NCBI GenBank assembly: GCA_031275085.1
Contig: JAISPG010000060.1
Span: 1 to 64,000 of the forward strand
Source of the DNA: Bacteroidales bacterium
GTDB taxonomy: Bacteria > Bacteroidota > Bacteroidia > Bacteroidales > ML635J-15
DNA length: 64,000 nucleotides
Direction of reading: 5' to 3'
The translations under genes were made by a program, and so were the position numbers. Below, piece by piece: positions 11,743 to 26,116 of this stretch (position 1 is the stretch's first letter; each line of letters begins with the position of its first letter). A model generated the notes under the pieces. It did no database searches. It was not told the DNA's origin and was given only the letters and a program-made list of their open reading frames with translations.

Positions 11743-12927
11743 TCAAATATGTCTTACTGTAATATGTTTCAGTAATTTATTTTCCAGCACATTGGCAACT
11801 CTGTTAGCGATAGTGCGTCTTATTTCAAGATCGACAGGAACATTCGGATCCTGATGAGCTTCATTTATTTTTGTGCCTACAAGTATATCTATCTGATCGC
11901 TTTCCAGTATAAGTTTTACTATCTGATCTGCGGGACCTTTACCCGGTTTATAGTCATTGGTAAGATTTGTAAGTATTTTCCAGACTTTATTCAATGTGAG
12001 TATTCCTTCGGTAACGAGATCAATTCCTTCCATATGTGAAACAGGTGGCAGTTCGTCATCAAGGAAATCCAGAGAATCGGTGACTTCCAGGTTTAATTCG
12101 CGCGCAATAATATCGGTTGTAGAGCCACCGGCAATTATTTTCTTACCGTCATAATTTTTTACAATTGATGCGAATTCTTTATCGTTTGCCTTACTCATAG
12201 GCGGACCTGTTACAATAAGTAATTTTCTGGGTCTTCTGAAATATATTGTTGCACAGCTTGTGTCGTCCTTAGGCATGTAGTCGTCATTTGCAATAGCTTT
12301 ATTTACTACTTTTTCCGCTAATTTTCCTGCTGATATGTCATGGTTGTTATCAAGAATTCCTGCAATATATTCTTCAATGTGGGAAACTTCCCATCCAAAA
12401 GGATATTTGTCTGTTCCCATACCCGATTGTGCAACTCCATCGGTACAAATAATTATACGGTCGTAAAGTTTTGGATAAAAACTGCTATGAGTTAGTTTTT
12501 TTCCTGCATGTTTCGGGTTTTTCATTTCAATTATTTCACGGTTAACAACCAGAGATTTGTTGTTTCTGAATACCATTACAGAAGGATTGTCATATTCCAG
12601 TATGTGTACTTTTCCGTCTATTTCAAGGTCGATAACTGTAAATGTTGCATAAGAAACCTGTCTTTCGCTACATATCGGAAGCGTACTCATTATTATTTCT
12701 GCAATACGTTCGGGATTACGGTGTTCTACAGTAAAGTTAAGAGCCATTGTAGAAGTCAGGGTTGCAAGCACATTAGCTTTTACTCCATGTCCCATTCCGT
12801 CGGATAAAACTACTATAATACGTTTATCTTCCTTGATCCTTTTTTTCAGGAAAACATCTCCGCAAATTTTTTCACCATGATGATTTACTTGTTTTGCTTC
12901 GATTTCTATATATAGGTTTTTATCCAT
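11743..12927 (-). CDS. SpoIIE-family (PP2C-like) phosphatase with extra C-terminal domain
   Basis: 394 residues. The N-terminal 230 residues form a PP2C/SpoIIE phosphatase domain, with metal-binding aspartates in CGDVF (D24) and VVLSDGMGHG (D43) and a later CTDGVAQS. Residues from about 232 to the end (starting PRKLLIVTGPP, then AGGSTTDIIAREL) form a separate domain I cannot name. Proteins of this kind are familiar beside FeFe-hydrogenase sensor genes. It starts 2 bases after the stop of the hydrogenase-PAS sensor, so the sensor probably controls this output. Its substrate is unknown. Confidence 0.85.
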   Translation of the reverse strand: MDKNLYIEIEAKQVNHHGEKICGDVFLKKRIKEDKRIIVVLSDGMGHGVKANVLATLTSTMALNFTVEHRNPERIAEIIMSTLPICSERQVSYATFTVIDLEIDGKVHILEYDNPSVMVFRNNKSLVVNREIIEMKNPKHAGKKLTHSSFYPKLYDRIIICTDGVAQSGMGTDKYPFGWEVSHIEEYIAGILDNNHDISAGKLAEKVVNKAIANDDYMPKDDTSCATIYFRRPRKLLIVTGPPMSKANDKEFASIVKNYDGKKIIAGGSTTDIIARELNLEVTDSLDFLDDELPPVSHMEGIDLVTEGILTLNKVWKILTNLTNDYKPGKGPADQIVKLILESDQIDILVGTKINEAHQDPNVPVDLEIRRTIANRVANVLENKLLKHITVRHI

Positions 12928-14918: not shown

Positions 14919-15170
14919 CTATTCTTCCATTAAAAAACTTTCAATGATTGCGATGGCTTTTGAAGGATTTATTTCAATAAATTCCTGACCGTTTACCAGC
15001 ATTATTGGTCCTTTTTTGCAGTGTCCAAAACAGTGTCCGCCTTTTAATGTTATTTTAGTTTTAAGGTTTTTATCGGTTATATATTCCTGTAATACTGATA
15101 CAACATCACGGTTCTTCCTGCTGAAACAGGAGCTTCCGAGACATATTGTAACGTTTATTTTATCTTCCAT
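14919..15170 (-). CDS. Thioredoxin-like [2Fe-2S] ferredoxin
   Basis: 83 residues with the cysteine pattern of NuoE/HndA C-terminal domains: C10-x4-C15 (CLGSSC) and C47-x3-C51 (CFGHC) followed by KKGPIMLVNG. Such stand-alone domains occur in FeFe-hydrogenase loci as small electron carriers. It lies between ugd and the hydrogenase-PAS sensor gene on the same strand. It is likely cytoplasmic; its redox partner could be either sensor or the HndC-like subunit. All four ligands are present, unlike the degenerate N-terminal domain of the HndC-like protein. Confidence 0.85.
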   Translation of the reverse strand: MEDKINVTICLGSSCFSRKNRDVVSVLQEYITDKNLKTKITLKGGHCFGHCKKGPIMLVNGQEFIEINPSKAIAIIESFLMEE

Positions 15171-17616: not shown

Positions 17617-18234
17617 TTATTTTTTTTCTTTTACATAATAGGCGACTTTCTCCAGTGATGTGATCATATCATAATTTTCTAAAAAAACATCGTCAGGTAC
17701 ATTTATTGATACTGATGTAAAATTCAGAATTCCTCTTATTCCGGCATAGACTAGTTTGTCGGCAACATCCTGTGCGCCTTTTTGTGATAACGACATAATT
17801 GCAATTGAAACATTACTGTTTTTTAATATTTTTCCCAGATCATTTACATGGTAACTTTTTATTCCTGAAATAATTCTGTCTATTTTAGAATTGTCTATAT
17901 CAAATGCGGCAACTATTTCAATATTACTGCGTTTTGAATTAAAATAGTTAGTAATGGCTTTGCCTAAATGCCCCATTCCTATAATTACAGCACTGGTTTT
18001 TTCATTGCCATCCAGTATTAAATTGATTTTTTCAATTAATTCCGGTATAGAGTAACCTTTTCGTTGTGTACCGGTATAACCTATCAACATAATATCCCTT
18101 CTTACTTGCACCGAAGTTAGATGTAACAAACTACCCAATTCGTGCGAAAAGATAAAATCGTTTCCGTTTTCAAGGTTAGATATCAAAACTCTGCGGTACA
18201 AGCTTAATCTCTCAATCGTTTTTTCTGGTAACAT
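17617..18234 (-). CDS. rex: Redox-sensing transcriptional repressor Rex
   Basis: 205 residues. N-terminal winged helix with the Rex hallmark LTSVQVRRDIMLIG (about residues 39-52), then a Rossmann NAD(H)-binding domain with VIIGMGHLGKAI (about 84-95). Rex binds DNA when NADH/NAD+ is low and releases it when NADH rises, controlling fermentation and hydrogenase genes. Two Rex-like operator sequences overlap the promoter at 26122-26169 at the head of this gene run, so it probably controls the hydrogenase-like genes and perhaps itself. Coupled to the ribF-like gene. Confidence 0.93.
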   Translation of the reverse strand: MLPEKTIERLSLYRRVLISNLENGNDFIFSHELGSLLHLTSVQVRRDIMLIGYTGTQRKGYSIPELIEKINLILDGNEKTSAVIIGMGHLGKAITNYFNSKRSNIEIVAAFDIDNSKIDRIISGIKSYHVNDLGKILKNSNVSIAIMSLSQKGAQDVADKLVYAGIRGILNFTSVSINVPDDVFLENYDMITSLEKVAYYVKEKK

Positions 18235-18441: not shown

Positions 18442-19560
18442 TCATTTCTTTAATATTATTTTTATTGTTGTTCCCTGATTTATTACACTTTCTAATTTAA
18501 TTTCGGAATCGTAGTTCTCTAATATCCTTTTTACTATTGATAATCCTAAACCACTTCCCGGAATTTTTTGAGTATTTTCATTTTTTATTCTTACAAATTC
18601 ATTGAATAATTTTTGTTGGTCTTCTTCTTTTATTCCGATTCCGGTATCAGATACAAGAACTTCGATATGATCGGGCATTTCTCGTATTGTACAGTCGACT
18701 CTTCCGTTTTGTTTATTGTATTTTACAGCATTTGAGAGGATATTATTAAGAATTATTTCAAAATCAGTAGGATCTATATTATAAATTACTTTTTCATTAT
18801 AGTTAAGATATATTCTTACATCTTTTTGAATAGCAAGTGGTTGTGTGCTTGCAATGCATGTTTTGGCAATTTCTCCCAAATCAAGTGGTTGTATGTTTTT
18901 ATGAGCTTGTCCTGATTCTATTTTTGTAAAATCCAGTAAGTCCATGATCATGGTTCTCATTGCTTTTAAACGTTCTATAGACCTGTCTATCATAGGCATA
19001 TAAGCATTGATGTTATCACCGTTTTTGTGATCTTTTATGATCTTCAGATAACCTTCAACTGCGTTTACGGGAGCTTTTAATTCATGTGATAACAATGACA
19101 AAAATTGGAACCTTATTTGTTTTCCTTCTTTTTGTAGTTTTGAAGTCATTTTTTTGAGAAACATCTGTTTAGTTATATTTTCGACAGAAGATCTTAATTC
19201 CTGCGGAGTAAATGGTTTAGGTACAAAATCAATTGCACCTTCACGTGTTGCTTTTACAGCTAGTTCTAATGATGCATAAGAAGTTATCATCACAACTTTA
19301 GAATCTATGTTATTCGAATTTATGTACTCCAGAACTTCTATGCCTTGTATTCCAGGTAATTTATTATCCAGCAGGACAATAGCAAATTCTTCTTTTTTCA
19401 GCAGACTGATAGCTATTTCACCTGTTTCTGCTTCGGTTACTTCAAAGCCGATCGCTTCATCCATAAACGGATAATCAACTTCAAACTTTTCGAGAATTCT
19501 TTTTACTCCCGAACGAATACCAAATTCATCGTCAACAACAAGAATTTTTAGCTTATCCAT
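18442..19560 (-). CDS. Response regulator-histidine kinase hybrid (REC-HisKA-HATPase)
   Basis: 372 residues. N-terminal receiver domain with acidic pocket D10-D11, phosphoacceptor D65 (VLLDNKLPG) and K115 (VPKPFTP), then a HisKA domain with H159 (SHELKAPVNA) and a C-terminal HATPase with VSDTGIGI and GSGLGLSIVK. No membrane segment, so it is cytoplasmic. The receiver at the N-terminus suggests its kinase activity is controlled by phosphotransfer, possibly from the hydrogenase-domain kinase upstream. It lies 84 bases downstream of a stand-alone receiver gene. Confidence 0.9.
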   Translation of the reverse strand: MDKLKILVVDDEFGIRSGVKRILEKFEVDYPFMDEAIGFEVTEAETGEIAISLLKKEEFAIVLLDNKLPGIQGIEVLEYINSNNIDSKVVMITSYASLELAVKATREGAIDFVPKPFTPQELRSSVENITKQMFLKKMTSKLQKEGKQIRFQFLSLLSHELKAPVNAVEGYLKIIKDHKNGDNINAYMPMIDRSIERLKAMRTMIMDLLDFTKIESGQAHKNIQPLDLGEIAKTCIASTQPLAIQKDVRIYLNYNEKVIYNIDPTDFEIILNNILSNAVKYNKQNGRVDCTIREMPDHIEVLVSDTGIGIKEEDQQKLFNEFVRIKNENTQKIPGSGLGLSIVKRILENYDSEIKLESVINQGTTIKIILKK

Positions 19561-19644: not shown

Positions 19645-20025
19645 TTATTTTAAAAACTTTTTTAATTCTTCGGCTATTTTTTCGGATTCCACACCTTTTT
19701 CGAGATATATATCTGCTTTTATCCACGATGTTTCATTATTAAAATGTAAACCAGTTTCAGAAGCAACATTTGTAGAAATTATCACAGGAACTTTTGGTTT
19801 TTTTTTCTTTGTTTTATATGCAAGAATAAAACCGCTATCATCATTTTCCATCATAAGGTCGAAAACTGCCGCATCAAAATCCATGTTTTCAATTATTGCT
19901 TCTGCTTCCTTTTGCGAACTTGCAGTTATTGTATCAAACCCTTCGCTTTCAAGCCTGAATTTTATCTGAAACAGATAATCAAAATCATCATCTGCAATAA
20001 GTACTATTTTATTTAATTTGCTCAT
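19645..20025 (-). CDS. Stand-alone response regulator receiver
   Basis: 126 residues forming a single receiver domain: D12-D13 (IADDDFD), phosphoacceptor D56 (AVFDLMMEND) and K110 (YLEKGVESEK). There is no output domain, so it should relay phosphate, like CheY or Spo0F. Its start overlaps the end of the hydrogenase-domain kinase gene by 17 bases, making that kinase the obvious donor. Insertions around NDDSGFILAYKTKKKKPK make it diverged. Confidence 0.88.
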   Translation of the reverse strand: MSKLNKIVLIADDDFDYLFQIKFRLESEGFDTITASSQKEAEAIIENMDFDAAVFDLMMENDDSGFILAYKTKKKKPKVPVIISTNVASETGLHFNNETSWIKADIYLEKGVESEKIAEELKKFLK

Positions 20026-22021: not shown

Positions 22022-23662
22022 CTAAAAGAGTCTTTCTATTCCTTTTTCTTTATAATACCCTTTAATGAAAGGGTTTTTCCCTGCTGTATCAGAATTTGTT
22101 TTTTCATCAAATTCCAGAATGTTCTTTTTTAATTTTTTATAATTTTCAACATCATTGCATTGTATATGTCCGCAGCCGTAGATGCATCCGAAATTACAGG
22201 CTCTTACCTCAACAAATAAATATTTATTATTTAATATTTCATGTTGTTTACATCTTAAAGTATCTACATTATTAATACTTGCAATAGTATATTTCTTATT
22301 TCCCAGTGCAAACTCATATTCTATAAATTGTTTATCGGATTTAAGTTCAGGTATTTTTTTAGTGTTATTATTTATTCCTGATTTTAAATATAATTCCCTT
22401 ATGATTGCTTCTGAAATTCCTCCTTTTGTTTCCAGTAAAACACCACCCGATGAATCAGAATTTGAAGGTTTGTCGGGTGTTTCCTTTTTACTATATGGAA
22501 GAATAATTCCATGTGTTTTTAATAATTTCAATAATTCTTTGGTTGTTATCACATAATCAATATCAGGTACTCCTTTTTGTGTATTGTTGGATTGGATAGC
22601 TTCATATTTATGTGCAACACATGATGCAACGCTAACAAGTATATCATTCTGGGGATCGTTATCGAATTTTAGGATTTTACCTAATATTTGTTGTGGTGTA
22701 GGTACTTTTGGTAAATATTTTTGAAATTCGGGAAGTTCAGTTTTAATGTATTTTTTTACAGATGGACAATCGCTGATTATCAATGGTTCATTATGGTTGT
22801 TTAACCTTTCTAAAATTATTGAAGAAATTTCATGGACAAATATATCATTCCCTAACGATAGAGTCATAACATTTTTAAATCCGACATCGTGAAGTGCTGC
22901 AACTAAATAATTACGTGCATCTTCATACCGTTTTACATTAAAGTATGTTGCAAGGCTGGCTATTGTAGAGCCGGATATTATAATATTTATTGATTTATCC
23001 GAATAATTTAATTTTTCTACAATTTGCGGAATATTTGTTTTTTCAAGTATGGCCCCTGTAGGACATGCTGTTATACAAAATCCGCAATGAATGCAGTTAG
23101 AATAAAATAGTCCGCGTTGAAATACTGTTTCTATATTAGAATTTTTACCTCTGTTCACGAGATCAATAGCAGAAATTTGGAGCATTTCCTCACAAATCCT
23201 CACACACCTTCCGCATAAAATACATTTGGACATATCGCGCACTATACCGGGACTGGAACGGTCTGATTTAGACATATTTTTTTCTCCGACAAAAGTTCTT
23301 TCCCTTATATTAAGATTTTCTGCAAGTTGCTGTAGTTCACAGTTTCCGCTTTTATCACAGTATAAACAGTTTTCAGGATGATTTGTAAGAAGTAGTTCGG
23401 CAATTGTTTTACGTGCAGAGATAACTTTCTGAGAATGAGTGAGAATTTTCATGCCTTCAGACACAGGACTGGAGCATGCTGTTACAAGAGTGTGGTTATT
23501 TTCAAGTTCTACTACACATAAACGGCAAGCACCTGTCGGAGTTAATTCCGGCATGTTACACAGAGTAGGAATTGCTATTCCTATTCTTTTCAATACGGAA
23601 AGAATGGTTTCTCCTTTTGTAACTTTAACATTGTTGTTATTTATTTTTATGTTAAATTCCAT
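22022..23662 (-). CDS. HydA-like FeFe-hydrogenase subunit with atypical H-cluster pocket
   Basis: 546 residues. N-terminal [2Fe-2S] (C35, C46, C49, C63), His-ligated [4Fe-4S] (H95, C99, C102, C108) and two [4Fe-4S] motifs (C147/150/153/157, C190/193/196/200), as in NADH-dependent HydA proteins. The H-domain keeps the four [4Fe-4S]H ligands C299, C348, C489 and C493. However, loop 1 reads ISDCP instead of TSCCP, loop 2 SVASCVAHKYE instead of MPCxAKKxE, and loop 3 VEVRACNFGC instead of ExMxCxxGC. Relay Cys, both pocket Met residues and the cyanide-contacting Lys are replaced. It partners the flanking HndC- and HndA-like subunits; normal H2 catalysis is doubtful. Confidence 0.85.
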   Translation of the reverse strand: MEFNIKINNNNVKVTKGETILSVLKRIGIAIPTLCNMPELTPTGACRLCVVELENNHTLVTACSSPVSEGMKILTHSQKVISARKTIAELLLTNHPENCLYCDKSGNCELQQLAENLNIRERTFVGEKNMSKSDRSSPGIVRDMSKCILCGRCVRICEEMLQISAIDLVNRGKNSNIETVFQRGLFYSNCIHCGFCITACPTGAILEKTNIPQIVEKLNYSDKSINIIISGSTIASLATYFNVKRYEDARNYLVAALHDVGFKNVMTLSLGNDIFVHEISSIILERLNNHNEPLIISDCPSVKKYIKTELPEFQKYLPKVPTPQQILGKILKFDNDPQNDILVSVASCVAHKYEAIQSNNTQKGVPDIDYVITTKELLKLLKTHGIILPYSKKETPDKPSNSDSSGGVLLETKGGISEAIIRELYLKSGINNNTKKIPELKSDKQFIEYEFALGNKKYTIASINNVDTLRCKQHEILNNKYLFVEVRACNFGCIYGCGHIQCNDVENYKKLKKNILEFDEKTNSDTAGKNPFIKGYYKEKGIERLF

Positions 23663-23695: not shown

Positions 23696-25609
23696 TTATC
23701 TTACAATTATTGCATTGAATTTACATACAGATTCGCATATCCCACATTTGATACAACGTTCCTGGATTATAAAATGGGCAGTTCTTTGCGAACCGATTAC
23801 AGCATCTGAAGGACATCTTTTTGAACAAATACTACATCCTACGCAGTTATCGACATTAATGGAATATTCTTTCAGATTTCTGCATATAACAGCGTCGCAT
23901 CTTTTTTCATAGATGTGCTCCTCGTATTCCTGTCTGAAATATTTCAATCCTGAAATTATAGAATTTGGCGCATTTTGTCCAAGACCACACAATGAAGTTT
24001 CTTTCATTAATTTTGAAACTTCTTCCATTTGTGTAACTCCTTTAAACCTTAACAGTGTTTCATGTTGTTTATTTGTTCTAGGTCTTTCCGTTATTCTGGT
24101 TAAAATTTCGAGTAACCTTTGTGATCCTTCCCTGCATGGAATACATTTTCCACAGCTTTCATTATTTATAAAATCAATATAGTACTTTGTGACATCTACA
24201 ATACAGTTTTCTTCATCTAAAACCAGAAAACTACCTGAACCAAACCACATGTTATTGTTGTTGAAGGTATCAAAATCTATATTCATATTGAAATCGTCAG
24301 GATGTATAAAACCTCCGGACGGACCTCCTATGTGGATTGCTTTTACATCACCGGGATTATTCTGTAACTTCGTAATGTCAAGGATATCATTGGGAGTTTG
24401 TCCCATTTCCATTTCAACCATTCCGGTAAAATCCACCTTTCCACTAACTGAAAAAAGTTTTGTCCCGTAACTGTTTTGACTGCCAAGTTCTTTAAATTTT
24501 TCAGGTCCTTCTTTAATTATGTAAGGAATATTGCATAACGTTTCTACATTGTTTACAACTGTGGGATATCCGAATAATCCGTATTCCGACGGATATGGCG
24601 GTTTTGGGCTTGGCATTCCTCTGTGGCCTTCCAGACTTGATATTAATGCAGTTTCTTCACCACATACATAAGCTCCCGGACTTGCAAATACAGATAAATG
24701 GATATTTATTCCACTTCCGAAAATATCTTCTCCTGCTAACCCTGAAATTTCAGCCTGCTTTATTGCATTTTTAAGTCTTTTTATCGCCAGGTCAAAAGTA
24801 TTACGTATATAAATTATCGCTTCATTTGCATTTATTGCATATGTACCGATCAATATTCCTTCTATAAGTAAGTGGGGGTTTCCTTCTATTAACATTCTGC
24901 CTGCAAAAGAACCCGGATCACTTTCGTCGGCATTACATATGAAATATTTTTTTTCAGCATTGTTGTTTAAAGTGTTTTTCCATTTCAATCCTGTATAAAA
25001 ACCTCCACCGCCTCTGCCGCGTAATTCACTTTGTTCTATAATATCACAGACTTCGGAATGTGTGTGTGTTGTAAGTATTTTTCCAAACGATTTGTATCCG
25101 CCATAATCAAGATATGATTTTATAGAATTGACATCAATGTTACCAATATCTTTAAGTAACCTGCGTGTTTGCTTTTTGAAAAATGGGATATCCGATATTT
25201 CCGTTATTTCACTCCACGAATTAAGTTCGGGATGAGAATATTGACCTATTATGAGTTCTCTTTCCGGTAATATATTATTCAGAATACTGTCAAGAACGGA
25301 ATCAACAATGTTAGAATAAATATTTTTTAAAGATATGATAGCTCTTCCCGGGACCTGTATACTAACTACAGGATCATACTCACAAAGTCCCTTGCTGCCG
25401 ACTTCAACCAATTCATATTCCATATTGTTTTCACTAAAATATGATTTGATTTGATCGATGGTTTTATCAATTCCTGCTATTATGCTGCAAGAACTTTTTT
25501 CAACAAAAATGTGTGGTACATTTATGTTATATTCATATAATGTATTGTCCGGTAATTGTTTTTCAGACTGGAAAATTTTTTTATATGTATAATCTTTTAA
25601 AATTGTCAT
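23696..25609 (-). CDS. NuoF/HndC-like NADH-binding flavoprotein subunit
   Basis: 637 residues. Degenerate thioredoxin-like N-terminal domain (about 30-110), FMN/NADH domain with LRGRGGGGFYTGLKW (196-210) and CNADESDPGSF (225-235), SLBB-like region, NuoF [4Fe-4S] site (C486, C489, C492, C541) and a C-terminal 2[4Fe-4S] ferredoxin domain (C589/592/595/599, C619/622/625/629). It should oxidise or reduce NAD(H) and pass electrons to the HydA-like subunit. Oddity: the N-terminal [2Fe-2S] domain keeps only C41 and C76 of its four cysteines. Lies 33 bases upstream of the HydA-like gene. Confidence 0.9.
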   Translation of the reverse strand: MTILKDYTYKKIFQSEKQLPDNTLYEYNINVPHIFVEKSSCSIIAGIDKTIDQIKSYFSENNMEYELVEVGSKGLCEYDPVVSIQVPGRAIISLKNIYSNIVDSVLDSILNNILPERELIIGQYSHPELNSWSEITEISDIPFFKKQTRRLLKDIGNIDVNSIKSYLDYGGYKSFGKILTTHTHSEVCDIIEQSELRGRGGGGFYTGLKWKNTLNNNAEKKYFICNADESDPGSFAGRMLIEGNPHLLIEGILIGTYAINANEAIIYIRNTFDLAIKRLKNAIKQAEISGLAGEDIFGSGINIHLSVFASPGAYVCGEETALISSLEGHRGMPSPKPPYPSEYGLFGYPTVVNNVETLCNIPYIIKEGPEKFKELGSQNSYGTKLFSVSGKVDFTGMVEMEMGQTPNDILDITKLQNNPGDVKAIHIGGPSGGFIHPDDFNMNIDFDTFNNNNMWFGSGSFLVLDEENCIVDVTKYYIDFINNESCGKCIPCREGSQRLLEILTRITERPRTNKQHETLLRFKGVTQMEEVSKLMKETSLCGLGQNAPNSIISGLKYFRQEYEEHIYEKRCDAVICRNLKEYSINVDNCVGCSICSKRCPSDAVIGSQRTAHFIIQERCIKCGICESVCKFNAIIVR

Positions 25610-25657: not shown

Positions 25658-26116
25658 TTAATCCAAATTACTGATTATAATTTTGAAATCATTCAGTGAA
25701 ACATTCATAAAATATCTATCATTGACAGCAATTATTGGACCTAAAGCACATGCTCCCATACAAGGTATGAACTCTATGCTAAATTTTCCGTCACTGCTTG
25801 TTTCTTTATTTTTTAAATTTAAAATTTTATATATTTCAGAGGTCAGATTATCTTTTGTCTTTATATGACAAGCAGCTCCGCTACATATTTTTATATGGTG
25901 CCTCCCTTTTGGCTTGAATCTAAACTGATTATAAAAAGATGCAATTCCATAAATTTTACCTGCCGGAACATTAATTCTTTTGCTTAATTGTTCAATGAAA
26001 TTCAAATCTATATAACCGAATTTATTCTGGAAGTTTTGTAATATAGATAAGAGTTCCCGTTTTTCAATATGTTCCTTTAAAGAATCTATGTAATTTTGCA
26101 TAGTTTTAGTTTCCAT
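25658..26116 (-). CDS. NuoE/HndA-like [2Fe-2S] subunit
   Basis: 152 residues. Helical N-terminal bundle (ILQNFQNKFGYID) and a thioredoxin-like [2Fe-2S] domain with C-x4-C (CSGAAC) and C-x3-C (CMGAC) followed by ALGP, all four ligands intact. It is the smallest subunit of NADH-linked HydABC-type complexes and first gene of the minus-strand run. The -7 box ends 5 bases before this ATG, so the mRNA may be leaderless; a second in-frame ATG lies five codons downstream. Confidence 0.92.
   Translation of the reverse strand: METKTMQNYIDSLKEHIEKRELLSILQNFQNKFGYIDLNFIEQLSKRINVPAGKIYGIASFYNQFRFKPKGRHHIKICSGAACHIKTKDNLTSEIYKILNLKNKETSSDGKFSIEFIPCMGACALGPIIAVNDRYFMNVSLNDFKIIISNLD

Follow-up and report, generated by a model that had tools for sequence, protein, structure and literature searches.

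Results

The window, 64,000 nucleotides at its full length, carries a minus-strand run of genes in the order hydC, hydB, hydA*, H-domain histidine kinase, receiver, receiver–kinase hybrid and rex. The third of these, hydA* (P0001; 22022..23662, minus strand), encodes a NuoG-like N-terminal Fe-S domain and an H-domain with an altered pocket (PF02906, 148.5 bits). Its reading frame of 546 aa is uninterrupted, and the plus strand is full of stops. It is adjoined by genes for a HydB-like subunit (23696..25609, minus strand; PF01512, PF10589, PF00037) with a NuoF FMN/NADH domain, a [4Fe-4S] site and two C-terminal [4Fe-4S] sites, and for a HydC-like thioredoxin-fold [2Fe-2S] subunit (25658..26116, minus strand; PF01257). 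This is the layout of HydABC/Bfu enzymes, and the initial annotation was right to place the rebuilt pocket within a HydABC-like complex. Judged by eye, the N-terminal [2Fe-2S] site of this HydB has two Cys versus four in the metabolic HydB of L092; it is also incomplete in the HydB of operon relatives with a canonical pocket, with one Cys in L080 and three in L081.

On the other side of hydA* lies the sensor P0002 (20009..22018, minus strand), composed of a ferredoxin-like Fe-S domain, an H-domain, HisKA and HATPase_c. Its H-domain pocket is of the sensor type (SSDCP, GPCIAKK, LCCKGC), and by our assignment the protein resembles HydDB class C1. A response regulator receiver protein (19645..20025, minus strand; PF00072), a receiver and histidine kinase hybrid recognized by domain matches (18442..19560, minus strand) and a Rex-type redox-sensing repressor (17617..18234, minus strand; NF003995, 203.6 bits at a cut-off of 126) follow. 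Beyond rex the run continues with two genes that we take, by eye from the sequence, to be ribF-like and ugd, a small thioredoxin-like [2Fe-2S] protein (14919..15170, minus strand), the PAS-type H-domain sensor P0005 (12930..14777, minus strand) and a SpoIIE-type phosphatase adjoining it (11743..12927, minus strand; PF07228). P0005 combines a second sensor H-domain with a C-terminal Fe-S domain and a weak PAS match, and by our assignment it resembles HydDB class C3. By eye its pocket is also unusual, with Asn at the relay position (TTNCP) and Gln at the place of Lys358 (PCLAQKK). Kinase-linked C1 and phosphatase-linked C3 are classified in HydDB as putative H2 sensors (PMC5037454).

The operon recurs elsewhere. 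Receiver and receiver–kinase hybrid are present in all 16 other hydA regions fetched (L075–L090), the H-domain kinase in 15 (absent in L088), hydB in 14 (L087 and L088 start near hydA), hydC in 13, rex in 11 and the PAS-type sensor in 8; several contigs stop inside the run.

Alignments of HydA* with 8a6t, 7q4v, 7p5h and CpI (6glz) confirm that all four [4Fe-4S]H ligands (C299, C348, C489, C493) and all 16 accessory ligands are kept, as first annotated. The latter are presumably sorted into clusters as C35 C46 C49 C63, H95 C99 C102 C108, C147 C150 C153 C157 and C190 C193 C196 C200. Around these ligands the group A motifs are replaced by ISDCP, ASCVAHK and RACNFGCIYGCGH. At P1–P3, written for group A as TSCxPxW, MPCxAKK and ExMxCPGGCxxGxGQ (PMC11406978), HydA* reads ISDCPSV, ASCVAHK and EVRACNFGCIYGCGH. 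Asp298, Ala346, Ser347, His351 and Arg487, positions anchored by invariant cysteines, stand exactly as described in the initial annotation. Changes that had escaped it are, from CpI to own numbering, P231 to G231, E279 to I279, E282 to I282, S319 to P318, F417 to L410, G418 to E411, T420 to K413 and G507 to C497. In CpI numbering, the pocket of HydA* thus carries A230S, P231G, E279I, E282I, C299D, S319P, M353A, P354S, K358H, F417L, G418E, T420K, M497R and G507C, and it retains R286, P324 and Q325. About six residues are missing ahead of the P2 motif, and the C-terminus is short. The predicted pocket (AlphaFold) has a pLDDT of 53.2, too poor for geometry. A sequencing accident is unlikely because the altered residues recur in eight further copies of the genus: the nine copies have D at 299 (9/9), R at 497 (9/9) and H or N at 358 (7 and 2 of 9), and with this agreement error or chance was ruled out for the motifs.

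The best PDB matches of HydA* are 8a6t_A (308.8 bits), 7q4v_A and 7p5h_A, then CpI; they are HydA of electron-bifurcating or HydA1-type hydrogenases. With TIGR02512 ([FeFe] hydrogenase group A) it scores 216.2 bits, below the curated cut-off of 405.95, against 517.8 and 511.2 bits for the genome's two other HydA. With NF040763 (NADH-dependent [FeFe] hydrogenase A6) it reaches 426.7 bits, below the curated cut-off of 765. HydA* has the four cubane cysteines of group A. The domain search returned neither the C-terminal four-Cys Fe-S domain nor the PAS or kinase domain of the sensory groups C and D in HydA*, and PF04060 and kinase or PAS matches were returned for P0002 and P0005. K358 and P231 have a role in diiron binding, and we take them to be among the sensor residues that hydrogen-bond the [2Fe] unit. 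The conservation of such residues that marks the sensory groups is absent from HydA*, where Lys358 has become His351 and Pro231 has become Gly231.

HydA like HydA* are found, window genome included, in 133 of 393 genomes of the order at E<=1e-95, a threshold at which more divergent copies may be missed, and in 29 of 395 genomes of a phylum sample. Retaining ORFs of >=480 aa and merging those with identical last 250 residues left 186 rows: 146 operon HydA (those of all 133 genomes and 13 further relatives), 28 from the phylum sample, 11 metabolic HydA and L154, a further copy of G159. G001 was left out, as it holds only a 224-aa fragment. The sensor kinase gene lies directly downstream of hydA in 115/146; 4/146 sit at contig ends, and 27/146 lack a kinase gene inside the distance applied; in at least four of these 27 a sensor match lies slightly further off.

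Positions 231, 299, 353, 358 and 497 are canonical (P, C, M, K, M) in 88 of the 146 operon HydA. Cys299 is lost in 49, and nine keep Cys299 with another of the five altered. The replacement is D in 21 rows, otherwise S, N, H, R, A, F, L, T, E or Y. The cubane cysteines are present in 146, 146, 145 and 146 of the 146, and among the 49 Cys299-less HydA in 49, 49, 48 and 49, with each of the 16 accessory ligands in 49/49. The single deviation, Phe for the cubane cysteine C499 in L019:9001-10632, is probably a matter of sequence quality and is not taken as evidence because its contig has other split genes. Loss of the pocket residues is graded: M353, K358 and M497 are intact in 8/49, C299, M353 and K358 are jointly lost in 33/49, and C299, M353, K358 and M497 are all gone in 15/49, 11 of which also lack P231. 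Nine of these 11 are the same-genus copies; the other two belong to a different lineage. HydA* does not stand alone: it marks the far end of a graded series within one clade of operon-linked HydA. The five residues are canonical in all 28 other phylum-sample HydA and all 11 metabolic rows. Cubane position 300 is Ser in 4 of the 11 metabolic rows. TSCSP, in which the first cubane ligand Cys300 is Ser, occurs in the metabolic HydA L091:7028-8818 (G000:C8), L082:14229-16016, L062 and L066, and 7q4v shares the feature.

After deletion of the pocket columns, 151 HydA were placed in a tree with five metabolic HydA as the root. All 58 altered operon HydA fall, together with 29 canonical ones, into a single 87-row clade (SH-aLRT 100), and the 59 operon HydA outside it are all canonical. 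About 12 changes of the Cys299 state, at least six of them forced by well-supported branches, and about seven gains or losses of Asp299 fall on this tree; the counts are approximate, as the tree was built by a quick method, carries no bootstrap values and contains several long branches. HydA* does not lie inside a known active group sharing ISDCP and AHK: the copies that share them come from metagenome-type assemblies, none of which we saw characterised. A single well-supported group comprises the nine same-genus copies and, next to them, L046 and L053. The genus of the window genome is mixed, with nine altered copies, one canonical copy (G018) and many members without such a match. This canonical operon HydA (L049 / L082:9126-10847) is labelled with the same genus and lies far from the nine, among canonical copies of other genera; transfer or misplacement is possible. 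Counting one row per genome, two or more extra hydrogenase copies occur with 41/49 Cys299-less and 31/88 canonical HydA, a strong raw association (Fisher p 4e-8). The idea that pocket loss followed gain of other hydrogenases found no support in phylogenetically independent pairs, and we do not claim it: nine such pairs gave, over random pairings, 0.1 for, 1.4 against and 7.5 without difference.

Over 21 positions of the pocket shell, taken from the CpI structure, mean entropy rises from 0.02 for 10 metabolic HydA to 0.46 for the 88 canonical operon HydA and reaches 0.87 for the nine copies of the same genus, in which it is no longer below the background of 1.03 (p 0.15). The same copies hold some new residues fixed: Asp298, Lys413, Arg487 and Cys497 occur in 9/9 each and in 0/88 canonical operon HydA, with Glu or Asp at 411 (8 and 1) and His or Asn at 351 (7 and 2). 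P231, K358, M497, E279 and E282 are kept in 0/9 and S319 in 1/9. The H-domain dN/dS of the four closest pairs is 0.067, 0.089, 0.092 and 0.116 (dS 0.3-1.3), and that of the N-terminal domain 0.03-0.05. Three of these pairs were drawn from one set of three genomes, and the window copy is in none of the four; synonymous distances that were saturated or >1.4, among them most with the window copy, were not used. Identity between the window copy and seven others is 0.51-0.62 for the H-domain and 0.70-0.73 for the N-terminal domain, and all nine ORFs are full length (543-550 aa). The low dN/dS in close relatives rules out a pseudogene. From dN/dS, entropy and fixed residues together we conclude that the protein is under purifying selection in the relatives, that its pocket seems to have been released as a hydrogenase pocket and that a few new residues are held.

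The kinase-fused H-domain behaves differently. Beside Cys299-less HydA (a row is available for 37/49), the equivalents of P231 and K358 and each of the four cubane Cys are kept in 37/37, and the relay place is Asp in 36/37. Beside canonical HydA (70 rows) the equivalents of P231 and K358 are kept in 68/70 and 69/70, with Asp at the relay place in 65/70. For this count 27/141 rows were dropped as duplicates or other context. Since the kinase pocket is kept, binding of H2 in this operon is more probably the task of the kinase-fused H-domain than of HydA*.

The window genome (G000) encodes six H-domains: two other HydA, HydA*, the two sensors and one protein of ~444 aa. The two other HydA (597 and 589 aa) have all five residues canonical, the 597-aa one with TSCSP. 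Loss of the maturases was discarded as an explanation, with HydF over cut-off in 22/26 and HydG in 22/26 of the genomes searched. In G000, which is 89% complete, HydG is encoded and HydF was not found over cut-off. Four neighbouring tandem radical SAM genes of ~450 aa each lie at G000:C60:17006-21581.

Discussion

We favour, at somewhat less than even confidence, the reading that HydA*BC is an NADH/ferredoxin redox module that ends at the [4Fe-4S]H cubane, probably has no working diiron site and serves the sensor kinase. HydA*, HydB and HydC would form a HydABC-type NADH, possibly also ferredoxin, oxidoreductase, in which the H-domain could no longer hold or work the diiron site and the cubane would be kept as terminal redox centre. 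Electrons would enter at FMN in HydB and reach the cubane by way of the unbroken Fe-S relay in HydA*, and the complex would report the redox state of NADH/ferredoxin to the neighbouring H-domain histidine kinase. The kinase would keep its own H-cluster pocket for H2, and the operon, with Rex, could compare H2 against the cellular redox state. This reading is suggested by the cubane and accessory ligands, which stay in the 49 Cys299-less HydA while the pocket goes. It also draws on the rise of pocket-shell entropy to background, the kept pocket of the kinase, the conserved operon, the low H-domain dN/dS of the four closest pairs and the presence in G000 of two further HydA that are canonical at the five positions. 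We infer an absent or idle diiron site, electron transfer to the kinase and a signalling role from sequence; the complex may feed redox information to the sensor instead of making hydrogen.

Several points weaken this redox-module reading. HydG is encoded in the same genome, so that a diiron site could be delivered; contact between HydABC* and the kinase is hypothetical, and a kinase gene was absent from the distance applied in 27/146 operon HydA. The association with extra hydrogenase copies drew no support from independent pairs. Asp299 can relay protons, and even Nar1 homologs, the precedent for a missing diiron site, have shown hydrogenase activity after anaerobic production in E. coli, as reported in PMC12621388.

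In the main rival reading, HydA* still contains the whole H-cluster and works as a hydrogenase, though very slowly or in one direction only; the operon would use it as an H2-responsive input, and Asp298 would relay protons. We regard this rival as rather unlikely, yet it stays strong because CpI C299D and HydA1 C169D release H2 and studied sensors work without Cys299. The two variants keep 30-80% of H2 release, and C169D has only 1-2% of uptake, according to PMC6226526; the CpI structure 6glz itself prints TSDCP at the relay motif. TmHydS and TamHydS are described as functioning slowly without Cys299. The 21 Asp299 rows of 146, the repeated gains or losses of this residue, its place as the usual relay residue of the kinase-fused H-domain and the eight Cys299-less HydA with M353, K358 and M497 intact would also suit a slow enzyme. 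The nine same-genus copies fit less well, since most of the proton path is lost in them, and P231, K358 and M497 are absent from all nine, which goes beyond the changes that the cited accounts describe for studied sensors. The interpretation in the initial annotation is supported in part and needs correction here: the exchange of the relay Cys for Asp is not disabling by itself in the variants of PMC6226526. What speaks against turnover is that K358, P231, M353 and M497 have gone together with the outer proton path (E279, E282, S319).

Two further readings concern what the H-domain has become. It appears improbable to us that the charged pocket (Asp298, His351, Glu411, Lys413, Arg487, Cys497) has become an active or binding site for a different small substrate, supplied by NADH and ferredoxin in the manner of other Bfu-type enzymes. 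The appeal of this reading lies in the four residues fixed in all nine same-genus copies and absent from canonical operon HydA, and in Bfu enzymes, which are described as having exchanged the third substrate many times while retaining the BC core (PMC9304861). However, the pocket shell as a set is not more conserved than background, and other lineages put many different residues there, which resembles loss of constraint rather than a single new chemistry. Equally hard to favour is an H-domain that is decaying and persists just as a scaffold that holds HydBC and the accessory clusters together, so that HydA* would have no signalling or catalytic role of its own. The H-domain does evolve faster than the N-terminal domain, and Cys299 is replaced by many different residues, but the cubane cysteines are near invariant (145-146 of 146), dN/dS is low in close relatives and the nine ORFs are full length. 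Of the three uses initially offered, different chemistry, slow running or a sensor, we consider the sensor likeliest because hydA* lies directly upstream of the H-domain histidine kinase in a conserved operon; binding of H2, however, would more probably fall to the kinase.

Among known systems, group A3/Bfu-type HydABC (8a6t, 7q4v, 7p5h) share subunits and accessory clusters with HydA*BC, whereas in HydA* P1–P3 are broken and the NCBIfam scores lie under cut-off. The sensory groups C and D (TmHydS, TamHydS; HydDB C1, C3) are alike in the replacement of C299, M353 and M497 and in the genomic tie to histidine kinase and phosphatase; unlike them, HydA* has the HydABC layout, lacks a PAS/kinase domain and lacks K358 and P231. 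Studied sensory enzymes are reported to function although Cys299 is missing and M353 and M497 are replaced (PMC10055695, PMC10407848, PMC11803613, PMC8163306), and PMC10055695 describes the residues that hydrogen-bond the [2Fe] unit as conserved in enzymes altered at C299, M353 and M497. In a prototypical enzyme, M497L is described there as leaving [2Fe] not properly integrated. CpI C299D and HydA1 C169D (PMC6226526) have Asp at the relay as HydA* does; in the variants as described, the remaining pocket and proton path are intact. The BfuABC clusters of Hydrogenedentota (PMC11406978) also have A3 genes beside C1/C3 genes and motif variation whose effect is left open. Their motifs are called conserved in general, and the passages on them do not describe loss of the relay Cys or Lys358. 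For a group A3 catalytic subunit of B. thetaiotaomicron, low activity and low transcription are reported (PMC12578642). Our search of open-licence PMC papers, in the text it returned, found no description of pocket-altered operon HydA.

Nar1/CIAO3, as presented in PMC12621388, keeps the [4Fe-4S]H site and has no [2Fe]H in vivo. It differs in acting in Fe-S delivery, in hosts without maturases and without HydBC partners, and we claim no shared ancestry. With still less confidence than the redox module itself, we suggest a bacterial, Nar1-like counterpart in an energy enzyme: within one clade, a bifurcating HydABC would have become, repeatedly and to varying degrees, an H2-independent redox input for an H2-sensing kinase. 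In these Bacteroidales relatives the diiron pocket would have been taken away and the [4Fe-4S]H cubane kept.

A working HydABC is usually recognised by its relay Cys, both pocket Met and Lys358, and gene surveys would score these HydA as H2 producers. About one third of the operon HydA have lost such marks, several times over. Here an energy-converting enzyme may have been turned into a component of a signalling device. The natural gradation from loss of Cys299 alone to loss of all five residues amounts to a mutant series that bears on the requirements of the H-cluster pocket.

Operon HydA of another lineage, L205 and L216 (G111, G214), show a second pocket with strong changes, with STLCP and QTCTSGK in a short protein of 550 aa.
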